NCBI GenBank assembly: GCA_034696485.1
Contig: JAQIWT010000384.1
Location: forward strand, 1 to 21,631
DNA length: 21,631 bases
From: Isohypsibius dastychi
Lineage: Eukaryota > Tardigrada > Eutardigrada > Parachela > Isohypsibiidae
Direction: 5' to 3'
The notes under the pieces are model-generated. The model did not search any database. It was given only the letters and a program-made list of their open reading frames with translations, and was not told where the DNA came from. Of the stretch, positions 1,555 through 19,064 are shown in pieces (positions within the stretch are counted from its first letter, which is position 1; every line of letters starts with the position of its first letter). A program made the position numbers and the translations under genes.

Positions 1555-3892
1555 ATGGTATTCGGAATCGACAAGGTTGTTTCGGGGATCGTCAAGTACC
1601 ATCAAACTGTCAGGGCGGGAATGGTCGAGCAATTCAAAAGAGTCCGCGATAATCCTGTGGTGAGTTGATCGTTCTGCTTTCACGGATTCCAAATGAGATC
1701 ATTGAAGAATGCTGGAATATGAAGTTTCCGATTTGTAGCCATCAGTTCTGATGTTTACATGCATGGATTCCCGTATGATTCCTTCTCGATTCACGCAAGC
1801 GGATGTAGGAGAAATGTTTATCGTCCGAAATGCTGGCGTTCTCATTCCGAATCACAAGTATTATGGAAGTGATGCCACGATAAGTAAGTCGATCATGTTG
1901 AAAAAACGAATGCAGGCTTGGAAAATCGGGTTGAATTCCCACAAAAAGCCGTAATTCTAATTGTGGTTGATAACCTGCTTCCTGTACACTTGACGGCCTA
2001 CTCTGTCTATAACATACAGGGATTGAAATCTTACGCTTGATTTAGAACGATTGTTTTGGTTTTTTATTCGCATTTTCCGTTTTTCTGTATGTTTTCCGCC
2101 ACCAGAATATGCTTAAAAATTAGAAAATATATTTCAAACTAGAAGATCTATTTCTTCGAGCACGTGACGAAATTATTTTCTTTGAATATGTTGAAAGACG
2201 AAACTGCATGGCTTGAGGCGATTTTGAATGGTTTTTTATTCGGATGACTGTTCTGCTTCGTGGAAGTGCATAATATGTCTTTTTACAGCGACGGAACCTG
2301 GCGCAATGGAACTGGCATGTGTGATAAATGCCGTGCAGGATGTGATTGTTTGCGGGCATTCGGATTGCAAGGTGAAAGAGAACTTCTGGGAAAGTGAACA
2401 AAAGATAGAAGATAATTGAGTCGAAATTATGGGAACTCTTTTGAATAGTGGAATCACAGTGCAGTAAATATTTACTGCACTGTGGTGGAATCTATAATCT
2501 TCACATCTGCATTTCTGGTTTTCGAAGCATGTGATTTATGCCTTTTGATAATCGACTTTCGTTGAGCTGACACGAGTAACGAAGACATTTCTACGTTCAA
2601 AACGTATTTCTAAATTATAAAAGAATCTTAGTTATATTTCAGATATAATTAGTTATGACCAAAATATTTTCAGTATTATTGACAACATTTTTAGTTGCGT
2701 TTTTGATTTGCAGTACATCGAAAATATTTTATGCATTTCTAGGTTTCACTGAGTCTTTTTTATCGTTTCTTATGATCATTTTTTTCAACTTCGCTCTACC
2801 GTACATGATTTTTTGTGCTATTTTTTGTGCGAGAAAATTTGAAAAACAAACTTTTTACGTCGATTCCGTATCTCACTGACTTTAGCCTACCAAGGTAGTA
2901 TTAGCTCTACGAAAAAGTATGTTCAAATTATAATCGATACAATGTTTGTATTTGCCAATATTTATATTTTTGCTCTATTTTTTATTCATATTTTGGAGAA
3001 TTTCTTCTAATATCTGGCTGATCAGAGTTATAGGCCCCCTCATAGCTTTCTGCAAACTTTCGTGTCAAGACCTTTTATTCTGAAATGGATAACCTTCAGT
3101 CATTCTTTTCAGTTTGTATCGAGTCGATTTTTTCGAAAATGATCAACAGGATGAATTTTAATTTGATCCTTTGTTTTTAGCTTGTCAGTATGTGTGAAAT
3201 CTGTGGTAGAAATGTGGTGTTGATCGCTAAGAACGTTCCATGCACGTAAGATGGTGTGGAGGAGCATTGATGTAAACCGAAACTCTAGATGCGTTCAGAA
3301 TTCAGAGAATTAGTATTTTACCATTTCATTCTCGTTTTTTCTTCGTTCATTTTTTCCACCCTTTTTTATTCGTTCGAATCTTTTGTTTACATCTCCGCTT
3401 TTTCAGGCCATGATTCTGCTTCAAAATCTGAAAATGGAAGGCAAAACGATGGAGACATGTGATTTCCAGAATTCGCCACTACGCGCCTGGGTGATGCGTT
3501 ACGGTGGGGATTCCTACGAGCATTTCGAGACCATGTTACGAGCTGAGAAGAATCGACTGGTCTTCATGGAGGGAAGTCATGCTCACGAAGCCGTGATTGA
3601 TCCGAAGAATCAGTTTGTTCTGGCGGATAAATTCTCGCAAGTCAGCACGCTTCATCAATTGGAAAACATCACTTCCTACCCGTTTATGAAGAAATTAGTC
3701 GACGGCGGACTTGTCAGGCTGCACGCTATGTGGTTCGACATTTACACCGGGAATATCTTCTACTTTAGCAAACCACATAAGACGTTCATTGAGATTACGG
3801 AGGAGAATTGGGATGACTTCTTGGATGAGAAGGAACGCGAGGCGATTAGTAAGCAGGTTCGCTATGGGTTGATAAGGAAGATGATGGCTTGA
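1555..3892 (+). CDS. Beta-carbonic anhydrase, animal type, four exons
   Basis: This zinc enzyme interconverts CO2 and bicarbonate. Animal members of the beta class are usually mitochondrial and about 250-270 residues long. Coding exons are 1555-1659, 1739-1883, 2289-2371 and 3407-3892. All introns are GT-AG and phases match, giving 272 residues. Zinc and active-site residues are visible: CMDSR (Cys43, Asp45, Arg47) and GHSDC (His107, Cys110). Other family landmarks are VRDNP, FIVRNAG, AMELACVINAVQDVIVCGHSD, SPLRAWV, DKFSQVSTLHQLENI and LHAMWFDIYTGNIFYFS. The start ATG has context AAAAATGG and gives the expected N-terminus (GIVKYHQTVRAGMVEQF). The N-terminus has basic residues and few acidic ones, but I cannot confirm mitochondrial targeting. 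Intron 3 is much longer (1035 bases) than introns 1 and 2 (79 and 405) and carries the palindromic insertion at 2455-2484. No canonical AATAAA was found downstream. Confidence 0.96.
2372..3406 (+). other. Large third intron of the carbonic anhydrase gene
   Basis: This A/T-rich intron lies between the exon ending GHSDCK and the exon starting AMILLQ. It contains a hydrophobic 74-codon open frame at 2655-2879. The low-complexity T-rich sequence and lack of splice context suggest this is a chance frame. The palindrome at 2455-2484 is the only distinct structure seen. Confidence 0.6.
2448..2491. mobile_element. Tiny perfect palindrome flanked by 7-bp direct repeats (MITE-like remnant)
   Basis: Bases 2455-2484 form a perfect 30-bp palindrome with no loop. 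The 7-bp word GTGGAAT sits directly on both sides (2448-2454 and 2485-2491). If the next C is counted, the flanks read GTGGAATC on both sides and the duplication becomes 8 bp. Flanking 7-8 bp duplications and CACAGTG/CACTGTG termini fit an hAT- or P-like target-site duplication around a minimal two-ended element. It lies within intron 3 of the carbonic anhydrase and does not touch an exon. The assignment to a superfamily is inference. Confidence 0.55.
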
Positions 3893-6321: not shown

Positions 6322-7799
6322 ATGCCTGCCCCGAAAGCGAGTCATGTGGAACATGTGGCACCGACGACGCCGGTACCGAGAACGGAACTGGAAGAGGTCC
6401 AGATGAACATCAACTTGAAAGCAGATGAGGTAATCCACTCTGACCAACACTTAAAACTGGAATTATTACATTAAACGAACAATTATCTGCTGTGTATATT
6501 GGTGCTATGGTATTTTAACATATTGATGGTATACTACCATAACTGAACCTCAAAAATTAGAGAAATTTCAGGTCAAAATATTTCGAGGTACTACTTTACA
6601 TATTTAGTTTATGAGTGGCAAACCTATAAATTTCCAGTTGAAGTTGCAGACAATTTGATAAAACAAAATAATGTCTGATTTTATGCACTCCTGATTTTCT
6701 CCGCATCTCGCACTCTTTGATAACCCCGCTCGTTTCAGTCGCTGGATTCGACCCGAAGAATGCTTCAACTATGTGAAGAGGTATGGTTGCTCCGGGATCG
6801 GTTTCAGTACAAATGACCACAAGTTGAGACTGACCGTGTATTTCCGATAGAGTAAAGAAGATGCCATTCGGACATTGGTTATGCTCGACGAACAAGGAGG
6901 TAACCTATACAGTACAGTTGTCGCATTCTCACAGAATAATCCAATGCCTTTATTTCAGAACAACTTGATCATATCAACGAAGGAATGGACCAGATCAATC
7001 AGGATATGAAAGAAGCTGAGAAAAACTTGACGGGAATGGACAAGTGCTGTGGACTATGCGTTTGTCCATGGAACAAGTACGTATGGTCATCGAGTATGCG
7101 TGAAGAAAAATAGTGTCAAAGGTAGACGCATTAACCGTGCTTCCCAAAAATAAACTCCTGGTATGCTAATTTTTCGTAGTAGAATTTTTGGAACGTCACC
7201 TGGTGAAACAGTGGGTCTCTCAAAGTGGTGGCAATGAGGCTGGTTTTGGGCTTGTCACTTACATCGGCGGGTTTCGATTACCTGGGGGGGGGGGGCAGCT
7301 TTCGAAAATTGAGTGGAAGTTTCATTTGACCGTCTTCAACCACAGTAGCGTACTTGTTCAAAGTCAAGATTTCGATATCTTCAATCGTTATTTGCAGAGG
7401 AAAGAACTTCGAAAAAGGTGGTGATTATGACAAGACCTGGAAATCAACTGGCGATGGCAAAATCGACGGAGTACCAAGGAGGACTGTACCAGAAGGGAAC
7501 GGTTTTGGTCCCACGGGAGGCTACGTCACAAAGTAAGAGACAGAAACCAGGAAGATACGTAGAAACAATCCGGTATTCTTCATAACAGGATCACAAACGA
7601 TGACCGTGAAGATGAGATGGAGGAGAATCTTGGTCAAGTATCGACCATGATCACTAATTTGAAGAACATGGCGTACGACATGTCAGGTGAAATCGGCACT
7701 CAGAATCGCCAGCTGGACAATATCAAGGCTAAGGCAGACTCCAACGCCGCTCGCATCGACGACGCTAACAAACGAGCTGACAAACTCTTGAAAAAGTGA
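6322..7799 (+). CDS. SNAP-25-like Qb/Qc t-SNARE, paralog A
   Basis: SNAP-25 supplies two of the four helices of the neuronal SNARE complex, with syntaxin and synaptobrevin, and drives vesicle fusion at the plasma membrane. Coding exons are 6322-6429, 6739-6780, 6851-6899, 6959-7076, 7398-7532 and 7589-7799. All introns are GT-AG with matching phases, giving 220 residues (the family is usually about 205-220). The Qb helix runs from about residue 22 (ELEEVQ) through [14 protein letters not shown] and [15 protein letters not shown], with the zero-layer Gln at 65. The palmitoylation-type cluster [10 protein letters not shown] follows (Cys96, 97, 100, 102). The Qc helix comes from [11 protein letters not shown], with zero-layer Gln in EIGTQNRQL. 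Exon 3 begins SKEDAIRTL, where B and C have SKDAGIRTL. The linker has GGDYDK and [10 protein letters not shown], shared with C rather than B. No exon 1b equivalent fits in its short first intron (309 bases). Confidence 0.96.
7284..7295 (+). repeat. Poly-G run (12 bases) in intron 4 of SNAP-25 A
   Basis: An uninterrupted run of 12 G residues lies within the 321-base intron between exons 4 and 5. It is a simple mononucleotide repeat. Its length is likely to vary or be mis-sequenced, but it does not affect the coding frame. Confidence 0.9.
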
Positions 7800-11124: not shown

Positions 11125-14100
11125 ATGCCTGCCGATAAAAACAATCACGTGGAGCATGTTGCACCGACGACACCTGTGCCGAGAACGGAGCTGGAGGAGG
11201 TTCAAATGAACATCAACCTCAAAGCAGATGAGGTGAGTCACTCTGTTGTGCAGGGACCACAAACAAAATACACAATATAGATCTGCGTTGTAACCAATTT
11301 CAATTCTGCTCAAAACCTATGAAAAATTCGTGTCCGACTAATGTGCATCCGTATGAGAAGATAATCAATGAAGCTTTGTAATGTGCTATGTTCACATTTT
11401 GAGGTGCCAAAATTGTCAATCCGCTGTTGGGGAAATTCGTTGTCAACGCTTACTTCTCTTTTCTTGGAGTTAGAAATTTTAATCTCTTTTTGTGGACCTG
11501 ACACGTACTGGCGGTGCTAGAACAAGTCAAAATCTCGAATAGCTAGAAACGCTTGAATTGCAAAGCTCCCCCTCCCCCAGATCTGAGCTTTGTGCCATAT
11601 ACTAGTCCGCCCAACTAATCCGATGTCGAACGATAAGCGCCATCTTTCGGTGCCGGGGTAAACAAATATTGAGCGCGTTTACAGCGAAGGTACTACTTAG
11701 CAATTGTGAAAAGCACGTAACTTCATCGACGTCCCGGTTTTTTTCACTATGATCACTGTTGGCGCTTTCTGGAATTTTGAAATTTGTTTACAAAATCACC
11801 TAAGAGCCTGTCAGGTGGGGAAAAAATGTTTCAGAGCGGGTTGTTATCACGAGGTCACGACACATCTTGACAGGAATGACAGGAGCTGGGAAAACAGTGT
11901 TTTAAAAATGAGCCCTATCCATTAAAAGTCAGGGCTCGCCGTTCGTTAGCAATCCAACTAATGAGGCATCATGAATTCCTTCGTGCAAGACACCCAGTTA
12001 ACCAGAGTGGGGAAGCGGCACGTTGAGAGTGTTGTTTTTGGGATGCATTTCAGAGCTCAGTGCTTTTGGGATTTGCAAATGAGGTGGAATGCACGCGATG
12101 CGATCGATGCTAAATAGCGGTTTGTTTGCCGATGACAACTTTAGAAGCATAGGTACATCGGCAGACTGAAAGGGAGTCCAGAGGATAAAGGGATACAAAA
12201 AAGGGAGGTCGAATGAGTGATATTTGCTCAAACCTCCGGAGCAGCCATTTAGACATGTACTTACTCCCTATATCATTCCCCCTTCTTTCTCCGCCGCAAT
12301 ACGTCACTAAATAGTAAAACATACTCGCTTTCTCCCTCTCGAGTCAGTCACTCATTTTATTCTCCCCAATAATTGACATTCTCTACCAACTTCTTTCATT
12401 TATTCCAACTCGCGTCCAGCTGTTTCTTCCTTGTTTGCTGAAAATGTTCCCAATCATCTTCACAATCCATTTATCCCATTATTTGCATCGACTTATTTGG
12501 TCTTCTCGTACGTGACCTTTAACGATTTAATACACCGTCGTTCGTTGACGAAGTAGACTTCGGCGAAATTAATAAAGACCAGCCCGTGTTGAAGTTTATT
12601 CTCTTCCATTCCGTCCAGCTTGCGGTGTTCTTTTTTTTTATCTGGATTTCCTCGGATTACATCGTTAGCAATGGCTAATTCCAAAGCCCCGACCCTGAAG
12701 TCGCAGAGCAGTGATAAATCGAGAACCAATTCGAAAACCGTCGATTTGAAAAGTATTGACCTGAATCTTCATGATGAGAATGCAGAGGTCCCTGAACTTT
12801 TACGGAGGAGCAGTTTGGAAGTTCAACTTGAAGATGCAGTCTTTGAGGTATAATATTGTTTTGACATTGCCCGAGTTTGCTTAAGGGTGTGAAGTTCTCA
12901 GCATCCAGGAAATGACAGATATAAAACAAATATGTCGTGACACGTTGTGGCTTTGGGGGGAAACGTTCGCCACATGTACCAAGCCAATGATATTGTTCAT
13001 AGTGGCCAGTTACGGCTGATCTCTGTACCCCCGATGATTTCCTGAGCTTCTGCTTAATTTTTCCTAGTGTTTAACAAATTCCACTAGCCATTTGAGAAAC
13101 TAGGATTTATTGATTACATGCTGAGTTCTAAGTGGGCTGCTGAGAAAACAGCAAGTTTCTCGCCCTGCTAATCGTTCTTTTTGTCTGTTTTCAGTCCCTG
13201 GACGCGACTCGCCGGATGTTGGCCATGTGTGAAGAGGTGAGTGATGATGTCTACCGTTAAAGTAAGGGAGGAAATGTTGAGCGCCTGACTATAATGACAC
13301 CGAGAAAAATGGGATGATATGCAATTCTGAAAGTTTGAAAAGTCGATGAAACTTGATTGTTGGAGGGAACGGCTTATGCTTTGAGGGAAGAAACCAGTCT
13401 GAATGACAATTTAAACACCAACCACTTGTTCTTTAATCATTAAAGCTTATCTGGTGAGACGCATTCCCGATCGATGGGAGACTCTTACTTCCTCTTACCG
13501 CAAAGTCGCTTAAGGAAGACAATAAAACGTACATTTATGACGAGCGGTTTTTACTCTTGAGACAAAGAATGAAAAGTTTCTGAACGATCGGCATAGTCGG
13601 TTAACACGAAACCAGATGAAACAGAAATCTAATTATTCAGAAAATGCTGAGAGATCACCGATGGAATGTTGCAATATTTATGGAATGAGTGAACCTTATT
13701 TCGAGGGAACAGACCGAGAGACTGGGGAAATGCTCGACCTCATCGATGAAAACATATTTCCCAAGAGGCAATTTCACGGAGCTACGATCATTAAATGCAT
13801 AATCCCCCGGATATCGTCCCGAGTTGCGTTTTTATTCCTGACAAATGGACCATGTTTTATTTTACATCCGGACGATAAATTGAGATCGGTTTCTGGCATC
13901 CTTCCAAGTATTGACCTTCAGAAACTAATTGAATTCAGGTTAATGGTTGAATTCGTAGTGACGGAGAAACGTTGAGTTATTTCCAACTGGATCACTTTAC
14001 AAGAACAACATTTCAAATAATGAAATGGAAATTTGAGACGAACTCCTGAGTAAACAATCGCTCGAATTTGACACAGAGCATTTAGTGAGTTTGTGGATTA

Positions 14101-15002
14101 GAACGCTGTTTGATGGAAGTTGAAGTAGGAATCGATATAAGCTTGATTTGAAGCCTCTTCAAGGATTTAACCTCGTCCGAGCAGTTAGATAGATTTCTGT
14201 TAATCATTATTTCTTATCTTTCAGAGCAAAGATGCCGGCATCCGGACGTTGGTTATGTTGGATGAACAAGGAGGTAAGCTACAAAGGTCACGGTATTCTG
14301 AGACGAATATTGGATAATCATCTTAATTGATCCGCTTTTAGAACAGCTTGATCGTATTAACGAAGGGATGGACCAGATTAATCAGGATATGAAAGAAGCT
14401 GAAAAGAATCTGACGGGGATGGATAAATGTTGCGGGCTATGCGTCTGTCCATGGAATAAGTACGTAGGGAAAAAAATCTGTGATCGGTCCCACGCACGAA
14501 TCTTATCTGATTAGTAAGCGTTTGTTGCCCTAGAGTTTGTAACTAACGAATTATGTTGCAGAGGAAAGAACTTTGAGAAAGGTGATGATTATGACAAAAC
14601 CTGGAAAGACACGGGTGATGGCAAAATCGGCGGAGGACCACGTGTTACAGTGCCTCAGGGTGGCGGAGTGATGATTTCAGGAGGATATATCACCAAGTAA
14701 GCATCCTTTCAAATTCAGATATGTTCAAAATTGGTTGGCTTTTGACCAAGAAAAAAACCACCTTACTTCATATCATCTGTTTTAATAGAATAACGAACGA
14801 CGCACGTGAAGATGAGATGGAAGATAACATCGGTCAAGTGTCCACCATGCTGACCAATCTGCGCAACATGGCCGTCGACATGAGTGGAGAAATCGAGGGG
14901 CAGAATGCCCAGTTAGAGAAGATCAACTTGAAAGCCGATTCAAACGCAAATCGCATCACGGATGCCAACAAAAGGGCAGACAAACTCCTAAAGAAAGCAT
15001 GA
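11125..15002 (+). CDS. SNAP-25-like Qb/Qc t-SNARE, paralog B (isoform from exon 1a)
   Basis: This is the second SNAP-25 gene, in the same orientation as A. Coding exons are 11125-11232, 13195-13236, 14225-14273, 14342-14459, 14562-14696 and 14789-15002, giving 221 residues. Exon lengths match A except that the last is 3 bases longer. The N-terminus [15 protein letters not shown] resembles known invertebrate SNAP-25. Exon 2 is [14 protein letters not shown] and exon 3 [16 protein letters not shown] (zero-layer Gln65). Cys96, 97, 100 and 102 form the [10 protein letters not shown] membrane-anchoring cluster. The Qc helix contains [13 protein letters not shown] and EIEGQNAQL with its zero-layer Gln. 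Introns 1 (1962 bases) and 2 (988 bases) are far longer than in A. Intron 1 holds the alternative exon 1b and the conserved block at 12106-12427. Its 3' end faces paralog C. An acceptor at 11088 suggests an upstream non-coding exon. Confidence 0.96.
12106..12427 (+). promoter_or_regulatory. Highly conserved non-coding block upstream of exon 1b in B (candidate alternative promoter)
   Basis: These 322 bases match the reverse complement of 18421-18742 in paralog C with only four differences that I could find (at about 12143, 12380, 12414 and 12415) and no indels. Weaker similarity continues to about 12525. The block ends about 240 bases before the exon 1b start codon, where an isoform-specific promoter is expected. 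Visible words include a CRE-like half site (TGACGTA on the minus strand, 12300-12306), an E-box CAGCTG near 12418 and a pyrimidine-rich stretch with CTCTC. The identity could reflect recent gene conversion, regulatory constraint, or both. A short antisense open frame in the block (12110-12322 minus) is intact in both copies but looks incidental. Confidence 0.5.
12671..12847 (+). CDS. Alternative first coding exon (1b) of SNAP-25 paralog B
   Basis: This open stretch begins at ATG 12671 and ends in GAG|GTATAA at 12847/12848. It leaves phase 0, exactly as exon 1a does, so it can splice directly to exon 2 (13195). It encodes 59 residues: a Ser/Lys-rich N-terminus ([15 protein letters not shown]), an acidic stretch, then [18 protein letters not shown] leading into SLDATRR. 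This replaces the 36 residues of exon 1a and changes the membrane-distal start of the Qb helix. The same exon, with the same length and phase, exists in paralog C at 18183-18007, where most of its codons are conserved. The predicted isoform is 244 residues. An in-frame ATG at 12620 would add 17 residues, but the C copy does not share that sequence, so I prefer 12671. Confidence 0.8.
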
Positions 15003-15927: not shown

Positions 15928-18900
15928 TCAGGCTTTCTTCAGCAGTTTTCCGGCTCGCTTATTGGCTTCGTTGATCCGGATGTCATTTGACTCAGCTTTC
16001 CGGTTGATGTTCTCAAGCTGACGAGTTTGCGTTTCCAATTCGCCACCCATGTCGACTGCCATGTTGCGCAGATTAGTGATCATGGTTGACACCTGACCAA
16101 TGTTGTCCTCCATCTCATCTTCTCTTGCGTCATTAGTAATTCTATACATAATATCAAAACAGAAAAACTTAATTTGATTTGCAACTAGTTCCGGTAAATG
16201 TACCTTGAAATGTAACCACCGGTAGGACCGAATCCATTTCCATCCGGTACCGTAACTCGAGGAGCTGCGCTGTTGACTTTTCCATCACCGGTGTCTTTCC
16301 AGGTTTTATCGTAATCACCACCTTTCTCAAAATTTTTGCCTCTGCAAAATGCAGCCTTCAAGTATGTTCCGTTAAGCCTGTGTTTGTACTAACTTGTTCC
16401 ATGGACAAACGCATAGTCCACAACATTTGTCCATTCCCGTCAAGTTTTTCTCAGCTTCTTTCATATCCTGATTAATCTGGTCCATCCCTTCGTTAATGCG
16501 ATCAAGCTGTTCTAAAAGCGGACCAATTAACATGATTATCTAATATTCGTCTCAGAATATCGTGACCTTTGTAGCTTACCTCCTTGTTCATCCAACATAA
16601 CCAACGTCCGGATGCCGGCATCTTTGCTCTAAAAGATCAAAAATAATGATTAATAGAAATCTTTCCAACTGCTCGGACGAGGTTAAATCCTTGAAGAGGC
16701 TTCAAATCAAGCTCAAATCGATTTCTACTTCAACTTCTATCAAACAGCGTTCTAATCCACAAACTCACTAAATGCGATCTGTGTCAAATTCGAGCGATTG
16801 TTTACTCAAGAGTACATCTCAAATTTCCATTTCATTATTTGAAATGTTGTTCTTGTAAAGTGATCCAGCTTGGAATAACTCAGCGTTCCAAAATTACTAT
16901 GAACTGAGTTGTTAATCTGAATGGGATGATGTTTTAAAAGTCAGTTGCCGCAGAGTTGATTCCAAGAACCATCCATAAAACCAACGTTCGTTCGTGGAAA
17001 TTCAGAATTGGTAAACTGTCTGAAGAAACATTCGAATCCGACGAATGTTTGGGATCATTGCGCCGTAAAACTGCCTCTTGGGAAATATCATTCCGAATTA
17101 AATTGAACAATCCACAACATCTCATCTGCTCGTTCGAGGGAAACCTCACTTGCCCTTATCACAAATACCATTAATGTTTTCTCTCTGGTCCTTTCTCAAC
17201 TTCTGAAATACCTTGATGTCATAAACTGGCTTCAGTTTATGGCTGCAGATATATTGATGCATGGAAACAGCTAGAAATGTATCAAGAGCAAAAAACAGCT
17301 TGTCAAAAATGTTCGGTTGATTGTCTTTCTTAAGCGACTTTGCGGTAACTGAAGTAACAGTCTCTCATCGATCGGGAATGCGTCTTACAAGATAGGTTTT
17401 AATGATTAACGAGCAAGTGGTTGGTGTTTAAATTGTCACTCAAACTACTTTTCCCCTCAAAGCATAAGATATTCCCTCCAACAGTCAAGCGTCATCAACT
17501 TTTCAAGTTTCAAAAATCCATTTCATCCCATTTTTCTCGGTCTGATTACAGTCTGTCGTTCAATATTTCTCTCAGTTTTGTTGAGATATCATCACTCACC
17601 TCTTCACACATGGCCAACATCCGGCGTGTTGCGTCCAGGGACTGTAAGAAGAAAAGGAAGAATTAGCACGACAAACTTGGTCTTTCTCTCTCAGCCGACT
17701 GTGAACTCAGTATACCCCGAGTAAAATATATTGAGAAAACCCGGATTCCCGGATTGGTTTATGAGCCATATTCCCTTGATCATCGGATTTTTTCGGACCA
17801 CCGATAAATTAACCCACGTCCATCAACGCATCAGTCAACCGAAATTCGCCACTATGGACAGTTTCATTGGCTTGGTTCATGTGGCGAACGTTTGCCCCCA
17901 AAGCTATAACGTGTCACGACATATTTGTTCTATATCTGTCATTTCCTGGATGCTGAGAACTTCACACCCTTAAGCAAACTTGGGTAATGTCAAAACAATA
18001 TTGTACCTCAAAGACCGCATCATCAAGTTGAACTTCCATACTGCTCCTCCGTAAAAGTTCAGGGACTTCTGCATTCTCGTCATGAAGATTCAGGTCAATA
18101 CTCTTCAAATCAACGGTTTTCGAATTGGTTCTCGATTTATCACTGCTTTGCGACTTTAAAGGTTGAGACCTCAAACTCGCCATTCCCTTCCCAAGTTAAA
18201 ACACAATGTATTCCAGTCAAAAGGCCCCTAGTGGTTCACTGCATCGCACGAAATTGGAATCGAAGATGAGATTTGGCGGAGATTAAATGGTCTACGCCGA
18301 TAGAGTAGTTTCTGAGAACAGCTCGGTAAAGGTCATGATTATAATGACCAAATAAACTCATGCAAATGATGGGATAAATAGATTTTGAAGATGGTCGGGA
18401 ACATTTTCAGCAAACAAGGAAGAAACAGCTGGGTGCGAGTTGGAATAAATGAAAGAAGTTGGTAGAGGATGTCAATTATTGGGGAGAATAAAATGAGTGA
18501 CTGACTCGAGAGGGAGAAAGCGAGTATGTTTTACTATTTAGTGACGTATTGCGGCGGAGAAAGAAGGGGGAATGATATAGGGAGTAAGTACATGTCTAAA
18601 TGGCTGCTCCGGAGGTTTGAGCAAATATCACTCATTCGACCTCCCTTTTTTGTATCCCTTTATCCTCTGGACTCCCTTTCAGTCTGCCGATGTACCTATG
18701 CTTCCAAAGTTGTCATCGGCAAACAAACCGCTATTTAGCATCAGTCTTCTTTGCTAATTTAGAAATCACACGCGTGTGAACTTGTGATACTGCAGATCAC
18801 TTGAGGATTTCGTTGACAGGAACAATATGAGACTGATTATTCGTTAGACGGGCCAGCATTCAAAGCCTGAATGGACTTCTAAATTCGACTTATCATGTAT

Positions 18901-19064
18901 CAAACGGTGGTTGTTTCTCTTTTCCATGATTACAGTAGACTACAACAAAATAGAAAAAGTGTCAAACTTACGTCATCGGCTTTCAGGTTGATGTTCATTT
19001 GGATCTCCTCCAGCTCGGTTCTGGGTACCGGCGTTACTGGGGCAGCATGTTCCAAGTGCGCCAT
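15928..19064 (-). CDS. SNAP-25-like Qb/Qc t-SNARE, paralog C (isoform from exon 1a)
   Basis: This third SNAP-25 gene is inverted relative to A and B. Coding exons, in order, are 19064-18972, 17641-17600, 16628-16580, 16511-16394, 16341-16204 and 16141-15928. All introns are GT-AG with matching phases, giving 217 residues. Exon 1a is shorter than in A and [21 protein letters not shown], ending ADD. Exon 3 is identical to B. Zero-layer Gln is at 60; the anchoring cysteines are 91, 92, 95 and 97. The linker exon is 138 bases, one codon longer than in A and B, and ends GGYISR. The Qc helix contains ELETQTRQL, with Thr after the zero-layer Gln where A and B have Asn. Exons 2, 3 and the first half of 4 follow B closely; the rest of exon 4 follows A. 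A possible acceptor (TTTTTTGTAG) at 19190 suggests a 5' UTR exon of about 125 bases. Confidence 0.95.
18007..18183 (-). CDS. Alternative first coding exon (1b) of SNAP-25 paralog C
   Basis: This is the counterpart of B exon 1b: also 177 bases, starting at ATG 18183 and ending GAG|GTACAA in phase 0, so it can join exon 2 at 17641. The first dozen residues differ (MASLRSQP), but from [15 protein letters not shown] onward the protein is almost the same as B. Changes such as SMEVQLDD for SLEVQLED are conservative. Preservation of frame, length and donor in both paralogs argues for a real coding exon. The predicted isoform is 245 residues. Confidence 0.78.
18421..18742 (-). promoter_or_regulatory. 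Highly conserved non-coding block upstream of exon 1b in C
   Basis: This is the inverted counterpart of 12106-12427, with four differences in 322 bases by manual comparison. It lies about 240 bases before exon 1b of C, the same distance as in B, which supports a promoter or enhancer role for that isoform. The CRE-like word TGACGTA reads on the plus strand at 18542-18548. Beyond 18742 the similarity to B stops at once. Confidence 0.5.

Follow-up and report, generated by a model that had tools for sequence, protein, structure and literature searches.

Exon 4 of one of three neighboring SNAP-25 genes in the tardigrade Isohypsibius dastychi changes its closest relative partway through: the 5' half of exon 4 of gene C is nearly identical to that of gene B, and the 3' half is nearly identical to that of gene A. 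We analyzed a whole stretch of 21,631 nucleotides on contig JAQIWT010000384.1, which we call the window. The two tracts and the point where they meet can be read from the alignments. As to the process that made them, we infer interlocus gene conversion, in one direction or the other, with a probability of about 0.7. The switch leaves the protein encoded by exon 4 unchanged.

A cluster of three SNAP-25 genes

The three paralogues span 13 kb, with A and B on the forward strand and C on the reverse strand (Table 1). B and C lie tail to tail, and 925 bases separate their stop codons. In the gene models, all three genes have GT/AG at the intron borders and a matching order of exons, and the reading frames of B and C are open with either of two possible first exons. 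All three proteins score above the curated cutoff of the Pfam profile for SNAP-25 (PF00835; 25 bits), with 52 bits for A, 60.4 for B, and 64 for C. The best four proteins in each of three protein searches were P0001 (a JGI sequence) and proteins from Ramazzottius varieornatus, Paramacrobiotus metropolitanus, and Hypsibius exemplaris. An alignment of nine sequences shows that A, B, C, and P0001–P0004 all have the conserved cysteine-rich stretch ([11 protein letters not shown]) that lies between the helices (P0003 is from Paramacrobiotus and P0004 from Hypsibius).

A search of the assembly (30.4 Mb in 1,648 contigs) did not find any other contig that carries the locus; all 17 matches were on this contig (C384). 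With protein A as the query, 12 of 13 matches were on this contig and the thirteenth was on C697 (E = 1.8e-4). The sole match in the assembly to V-SNARE_C (PF12352), at L001 (G000:C595:1559-1756, E = 2.1e-16), is a different SNARE gene. Searching the whole window with Rfam at gathering thresholds gave no matches.

Table 1. Coordinates of the SNAP-25 genes and of the tracts and patches shared between them. Positions are those of the window.
Feature	Coordinates	Strand	Description
SNAP-25 A	6322..7799	+	6 exons: 6322-6429, 6739-6780, 6851-6899, 6959-7076, 7398-7532, 7589-7799; open frame, 220 aa
SNAP-25 B	11125..15002	+	exon 1 11125-11232 or exon 1' 12671-12847; then 13195-13236, 14225-14273, 14342-14459, 14562-14696, 14789-15002
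SNAP-25 C	15928..19064	-	exon 1 18972-19064 or exon 1' 18007-18183; then 17600-17641, 16580-16628, 16394-16511, 16204-16341, 15928-16141
SNAP-25 C exon 4 (exon of the finding)	16394..16511	-	118 bases; AG before, GT after
B-like tract of C	16451..16887	-	from the end of intron 2 through exon 3 and intron 3 to base 61 of exon 4; 94.9% identity to B over 435 aligned columns
Matching 94.9% tract in B	13968..14402	+	from B-C alignment and segmentation
Switch zone	16451..16473	-	23 bases that A, B, and C have in common; flanked by last B-type site 16474 and first A-type site 16450
A-like tract of C exon 4 (bases 39-118)	16394..16473	-	22/24 comparable codons identical; CDS columns 238-318
A partner of the A-C exon 4 tract	6997..7076	+	from base comparison and codon permutation
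B-C patch 1	12106..12488	+	upstream of exon 1', no modeled exon inside; 97.7% identical to C
C partner of patch 1	18360..18742	-	97.7% identical to B
B-C patch 2	12698..13006	+	most of exon 1' and start of its intron; 93.9%
C partner of patch 2	17848..18156	-	93.9%
B-C patch 3	13146..13552	+	exon 2 with intron on either side; 83.8%
C partner of patch 3	17291..17685	-	83.8%

Exon 4 of SNAP-25 C switches from B-like to A-like

Across the three genes, exon 4 has 18 variable sites. A base-by-base comparison shows that bases 1–61 of C differ from B at 1 position and from A at 6, whereas bases 62–118 differ from A at 2 positions and from B at 10. From 16507 to 16474, there are five sites with the B-type base and one with a base that is unique to C (16498). 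From 16450 onward, there are ten A-type sites, and two B-type sites (16426 and 16423) lie within this A-like half. The 23 bases in between are identical in A, B, and C, and this sets the resolution with which the switch can be placed. A preliminary description of the sequence had put the switch between 16474 and 16450, which is borne out, and had given the right counts of differences, except that the second part of the exon is 57 bases long and not 58.

On the B-like side, the similarity extends into the introns: within the 94.9% tract, intronic bases of B and C match at 240 of 257 positions and, in intron 3, at 64 of 68. Beyond the other end of the exon, intron 4 is nearly unrelated between B and C: 29 of 52 aligned bases match, and 2 of 100 shuffles were as good. 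The preliminary description had likewise called intron 3 nearly the same in B and C and intron 4 unrelated.

Statistical tests of the tracts

We tested the tracts with permutation analogues of recombination tests; three sequences give just one unrooted topology. Codon permutation assumes that codons are exchangeable, and uneven constraint could mimic tracts; with this proviso, B and C have the same codon at 39 of 40 comparable positions between exon 2 and about base 59 of exon 4, as compared to 65 of 128 elsewhere (p = 5e-5). The A-C tract begins near base 39 of exon 4 and stops just beyond the exon, with 22 of 24 codons identical versus 59 of 137 in the rest (p = 0.0017). For this tract, three scorings of a stricter codon set gave p values of 0.0006 to 0.0028. 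Codon permutation found no tract for A-B (p = 0.88). These p values are per pair, and those for B-C and A-C are still below 0.01 after multiplying by three for the three pairs. In both tracts, the local excess of identity beyond chance reaches noncoding or synonymous sites: it is found in introns for B-C, and at synonymous sites of exon 4 only for A-C.

The best single breakpoint for B-C codons across exons 2–6 is within exon 4, at CDS columns 256/259 (p = 1e-4), with differences at 3 of 45 codons to the left and 52 of 101 codons to the right. Recombination tests had been suggested in the preliminary description as a check, and in this permutation form the B-C codons do give a significant breakpoint at the switch. 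The best breakpoint for A-C codons is the end of exon 4 (p = 0.0007), and a partner-flip test gave p = 0.0075. If exon 4 is considered alone, MaxChi is borderline (p = 0.06 for B-C and p = 0.064 for A-C); in the B-C genomic alignment of 13968–14459, it gave p = 0.019. We also segmented the B-C alignment under 15 parameter settings: 8 of them ended the tract at the switch, and 7 carried it on to the end of exon 4.

When C was scanned as the recombinant of A and B in a three-sequence test, p was 0.028 over the whole CDS, 0.014 over exons 2–6, 0.039 over exon 4, and 0.17 over exons 4–6. For the whole CDS, B as the recombinant of A and C scores better (p = 0.004), because exon 1 of B is A-like.

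As a background, we used the codons in exons 1, 5, and 6 that encode the same residue in all three genes. A-B have 52 of these 95 codons in common, A-C have 39, and B-C have 48. In the 3' half of exon 4, 5 of 17 codons are common to A and B and 7 of 17 to B and C; in the 5' half, the count is 13 of 17 both for A and B and for A and C.

The junction is silent in the protein

All ten of the A-type changes in the 3' half of C exon 4 are synonymous. The residues encoded by exon 4 are identical in B and C, and the only one that differs in A is in the 5' half, so the junction is silent. The preliminary description had seen the creation of a chimeric SNARE gene, but exon 4 does not yield a chimeric protein.

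It had also taken linker motifs that are found in A and C and not in B as agreeing with the mosaic. However, P0001 and P0002 (GNGMGPTGGY) and P0004 (GNMGPSGGY) have motifs close to the one in A and C ([10 protein letters not shown]; [11 protein letters not shown]), and just 12 of 35 comparable codons in exon 5 are common to A and C. Judging from these sequences, the motif was probably kept from an old state in A and C and lost in B. The other motif is GGDYD in A and C, GDDYD in B, and GADYD in all four tardigrade-like relatives (GADYDK in three of them), which says little either way about the mosaic. The linker of P0003 (GGGPLMSG) is more B-like: the exon 5 linker of B (GGGVMISGG, 14659–14685) is nearer to it than the linkers of A or C are.

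B and C are an inverted pair with patches of high identity

A full-length alignment of B and C shows four patches of high identity and one short match of 38 columns, with stretches of about 46%–53% identity between them. The fourth patch is the 94.9% tract that ends inside exon 4. Patches 2, 3, and 4 include exons, and patch 1 alone does not. The start of patch 2 also falls inside an exon, nine codons into exon 1', so a border within an exon is not unique to exon 4. In the remainder of exon 4, the beginning of exon 5, and exon 6, identity is intermediate (76%–83%). Two of the three low-identity stretches that we tested aligned better than all 100 shuffles, and the third was equaled by 11 of 100. 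From these alignments, B and C look like old, full-length inverted duplicates, and the patches look like later copying.

We considered that patch 1 might be a dispersed repeat and rejected this, as it occurs at only two places in the assembly. A run of 236 bases outside the modeled exons (12144–12379 and 18469–18704) is identical in B and C, and the next-longest identical run is 70 bases. The 236-base run could reflect a very recent conversion or be a conserved control element.

The second possible first exon, exon 1', is 59 codons long and has an ATG and a splice donor of its own, and its end resembles the N-terminus of P0004. A tblastn search of the window with exon 1' found only the places in B and C (other matches had E values of at least 0.74). 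A seems to lack this exon, and its presence in B and C would suggest alternative promoter use in these two genes.

How the junction may have arisen

In the explanation that we prefer, B and C would derive from an old inverted duplication of full length, and much of their noncoding sequence would since have diverged to about 50% identity. Interlocus conversion between the inverted arms would have recopied patches at different times, and one of these, of about 435 bp, would end inside exon 4. The remainder of this exon in C would have been exchanged with A in a separate short event, which seems to have been limited to the exon because the adjoining introns do not match. We favor an order in which some or all of exon 4 was exchanged between A and C and a transfer from B to C then overwrote the 5' half. 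The A-C tract is unlikely to come from general synonymous constraint on the 3' half, because B encodes the same residues and is near the background there.

A variant that is nested within conversion, and that departs from this order in direction only, has C as the donor: C exon 4 would be A-like throughout, C would have given the 5' part to B, and B would be the mosaic. We take this to be quite possible, if not what we would expect. When scored more loosely, the A-C tract extends over the whole exon (32 of 38 codons, columns 190–318, p = 0.0006), and the differences between A and C after base 17 are evenly spread, at 4 in 101 (the MaxChi break is at base 17, p = 0.064). Furthermore, A matches B and C equally in the 5' half (13 of 17 codons each), and B scores as a recombinant over the whole CDS (p = 0.004). 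On the other side, a log likelihood ratio of 2.9 favors transfer from B to C, but it comes from exon 4a and drops to 0.26 (almost no information) without it. Within the B-C tract, A agrees at 24 of 39 codons, which is nearer to the A-B background than to the A-C background. Ectopic conversion, as proposed in the preliminary description, is the best explanation and the junction had been placed correctly, but the recipient may be either C or B.

We think it unlikely that there was no conversion and that the high-identity stretches are conserved functional DNA, such as splicing or promoter elements, one of which ends inside exon 4. Patch 1 would fit, as it is 97.7% identical, has no modeled exon, and lies upstream of the alternative exon 1'. 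In the 94.9% tract, however, B and C differ at 17 of 257 and 4 of 68 intron sites and at 1 of 33 codons (exons 3 and 4a), and a similarly low difference at intron and codon sites is as expected of a recent copy. Also, A and C agree in the 3' half of exon 4 while B is near the background, though all three encode the same residues. An assembly or amplification chimera of A and B reads is very improbable. A short-word assembler could join reads across the 23 bases that the three genes have in common, and a search of the assembly found no second contig of the locus for comparison. But several switches would be needed to make a chimera with the features of C, which has a base of its own at 16498, two B-type bases in the A-like half, and distinct intron bases on either side, and the models of A, B, and C all have open reading frames. 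Finally, the preliminary description had allowed for a partial inverted duplication of B that ended inside exon 4 and was joined to A-like sequence. B-C identity does fall at base 61 of exon 4, but B-C homology does not stop at this breakpoint: it runs on through exons 5 and 6, and diverged homology persists between the patches, where two of three stretches beat 100 shuffles. Past the A-like half, intron 4 of C is its own, and exon 5 of C is 70% identical to that of A. This origin is contradicted by the homology, and we give it almost no weight.

If conversion is the correct explanation, then a neuronal SNARE cluster of a tardigrade carries conversion patches of different ages, and trees built from the whole CDS of these SNAP-25 paralogues mix histories. 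Such conversion would be a common, ordinary process in a little-studied animal. A more speculative idea, which we doubt, is that conversion across the B/C palindrome amounts to domain-wise concerted evolution. The upstream region, the alternative first exon, and the N-terminal SNARE half would be kept alike while the linker and the C-terminal SNARE half diverge. This would give two SNAP-25 proteins with regulation and N-terminal halves in common and with different C-terminal halves.

Comparison with known systems

In the literature searched, and judged by title, none of the papers on SNAP-25 with gene conversion concerns such a case, and none on tardigrades with gene conversion concerns SNAP-25; we also found there no tardigrade paper that names SNAP-25. 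Exon 4 has 118 bases in A, B, and C, as do vertebrate SNAP25 exons 5a and 5b; a literature search for a SNAP-25 exon 5 of 118 bp found none. Exon 4 carries the stretch of vertebrate exon 5a/5b with the cysteine quartet (PMC2581893). The vertebrate exons arose by tandem duplication, are spliced in a mutually exclusive way, and differ at nine residues (PMC2581893), whereas here there are whole-gene copies and a silent exchange.

In nematodes, conversion has been reported between neighbors that are head to head or tail to tail, with tracts that extend into introns in two early studies (PMC3966223). A survey cited in the same article suggests that conversion is likelier for paralogues in the same orientation, which counts against it here (PMC3966223). 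The hsp16-1/hsp16-48 modules and hsp70-7/8 of Caenorhabditis are adjacent inverted copies, like B and C. However, those cases are pairs of genes or modules, and here there are three paralogues, a background with about half of the codons identical, and two tracts that meet inside an exon (PMC3966223). The inverted arms of Y-chromosome palindromes similarly permit local conversion, but they are described on sex-limited chromosomes, and the SNAP-25 pair is alike only in patches (PMC3403216). Conversion in Drosophila is treated in PMC3924832.

Conversion occurs mainly above 80% identity, though it is possible below that at a low rate, and overlapping events distort the inferred lengths of tracts (PMC3924818). 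Both of these cautions apply to the SNAP-25 cluster. In particular, the low A-B and A-C background (52 and 39 of 95 codons), together with the rarity of conversion below 80% identity, is a point against conversion.

Other features of the window

An upstream gene is represented by two exon-like pieces on the forward strand (2291–2371 and 3410–3889) with weak matches to carbonic anhydrase (PF00484; E = 9e-5 and 4e-5, respectively, both just below the curated cutoff). At 1266–1357, there is a perfect inverted repeat of 31 bases with a 30-base loop. The stretch that contains it (1255–1365) gave 62 match rows across 39 contigs, this contig included, as counted from the listing of the assembly search, and its sequence resembles a palindromic miniature transposon family.
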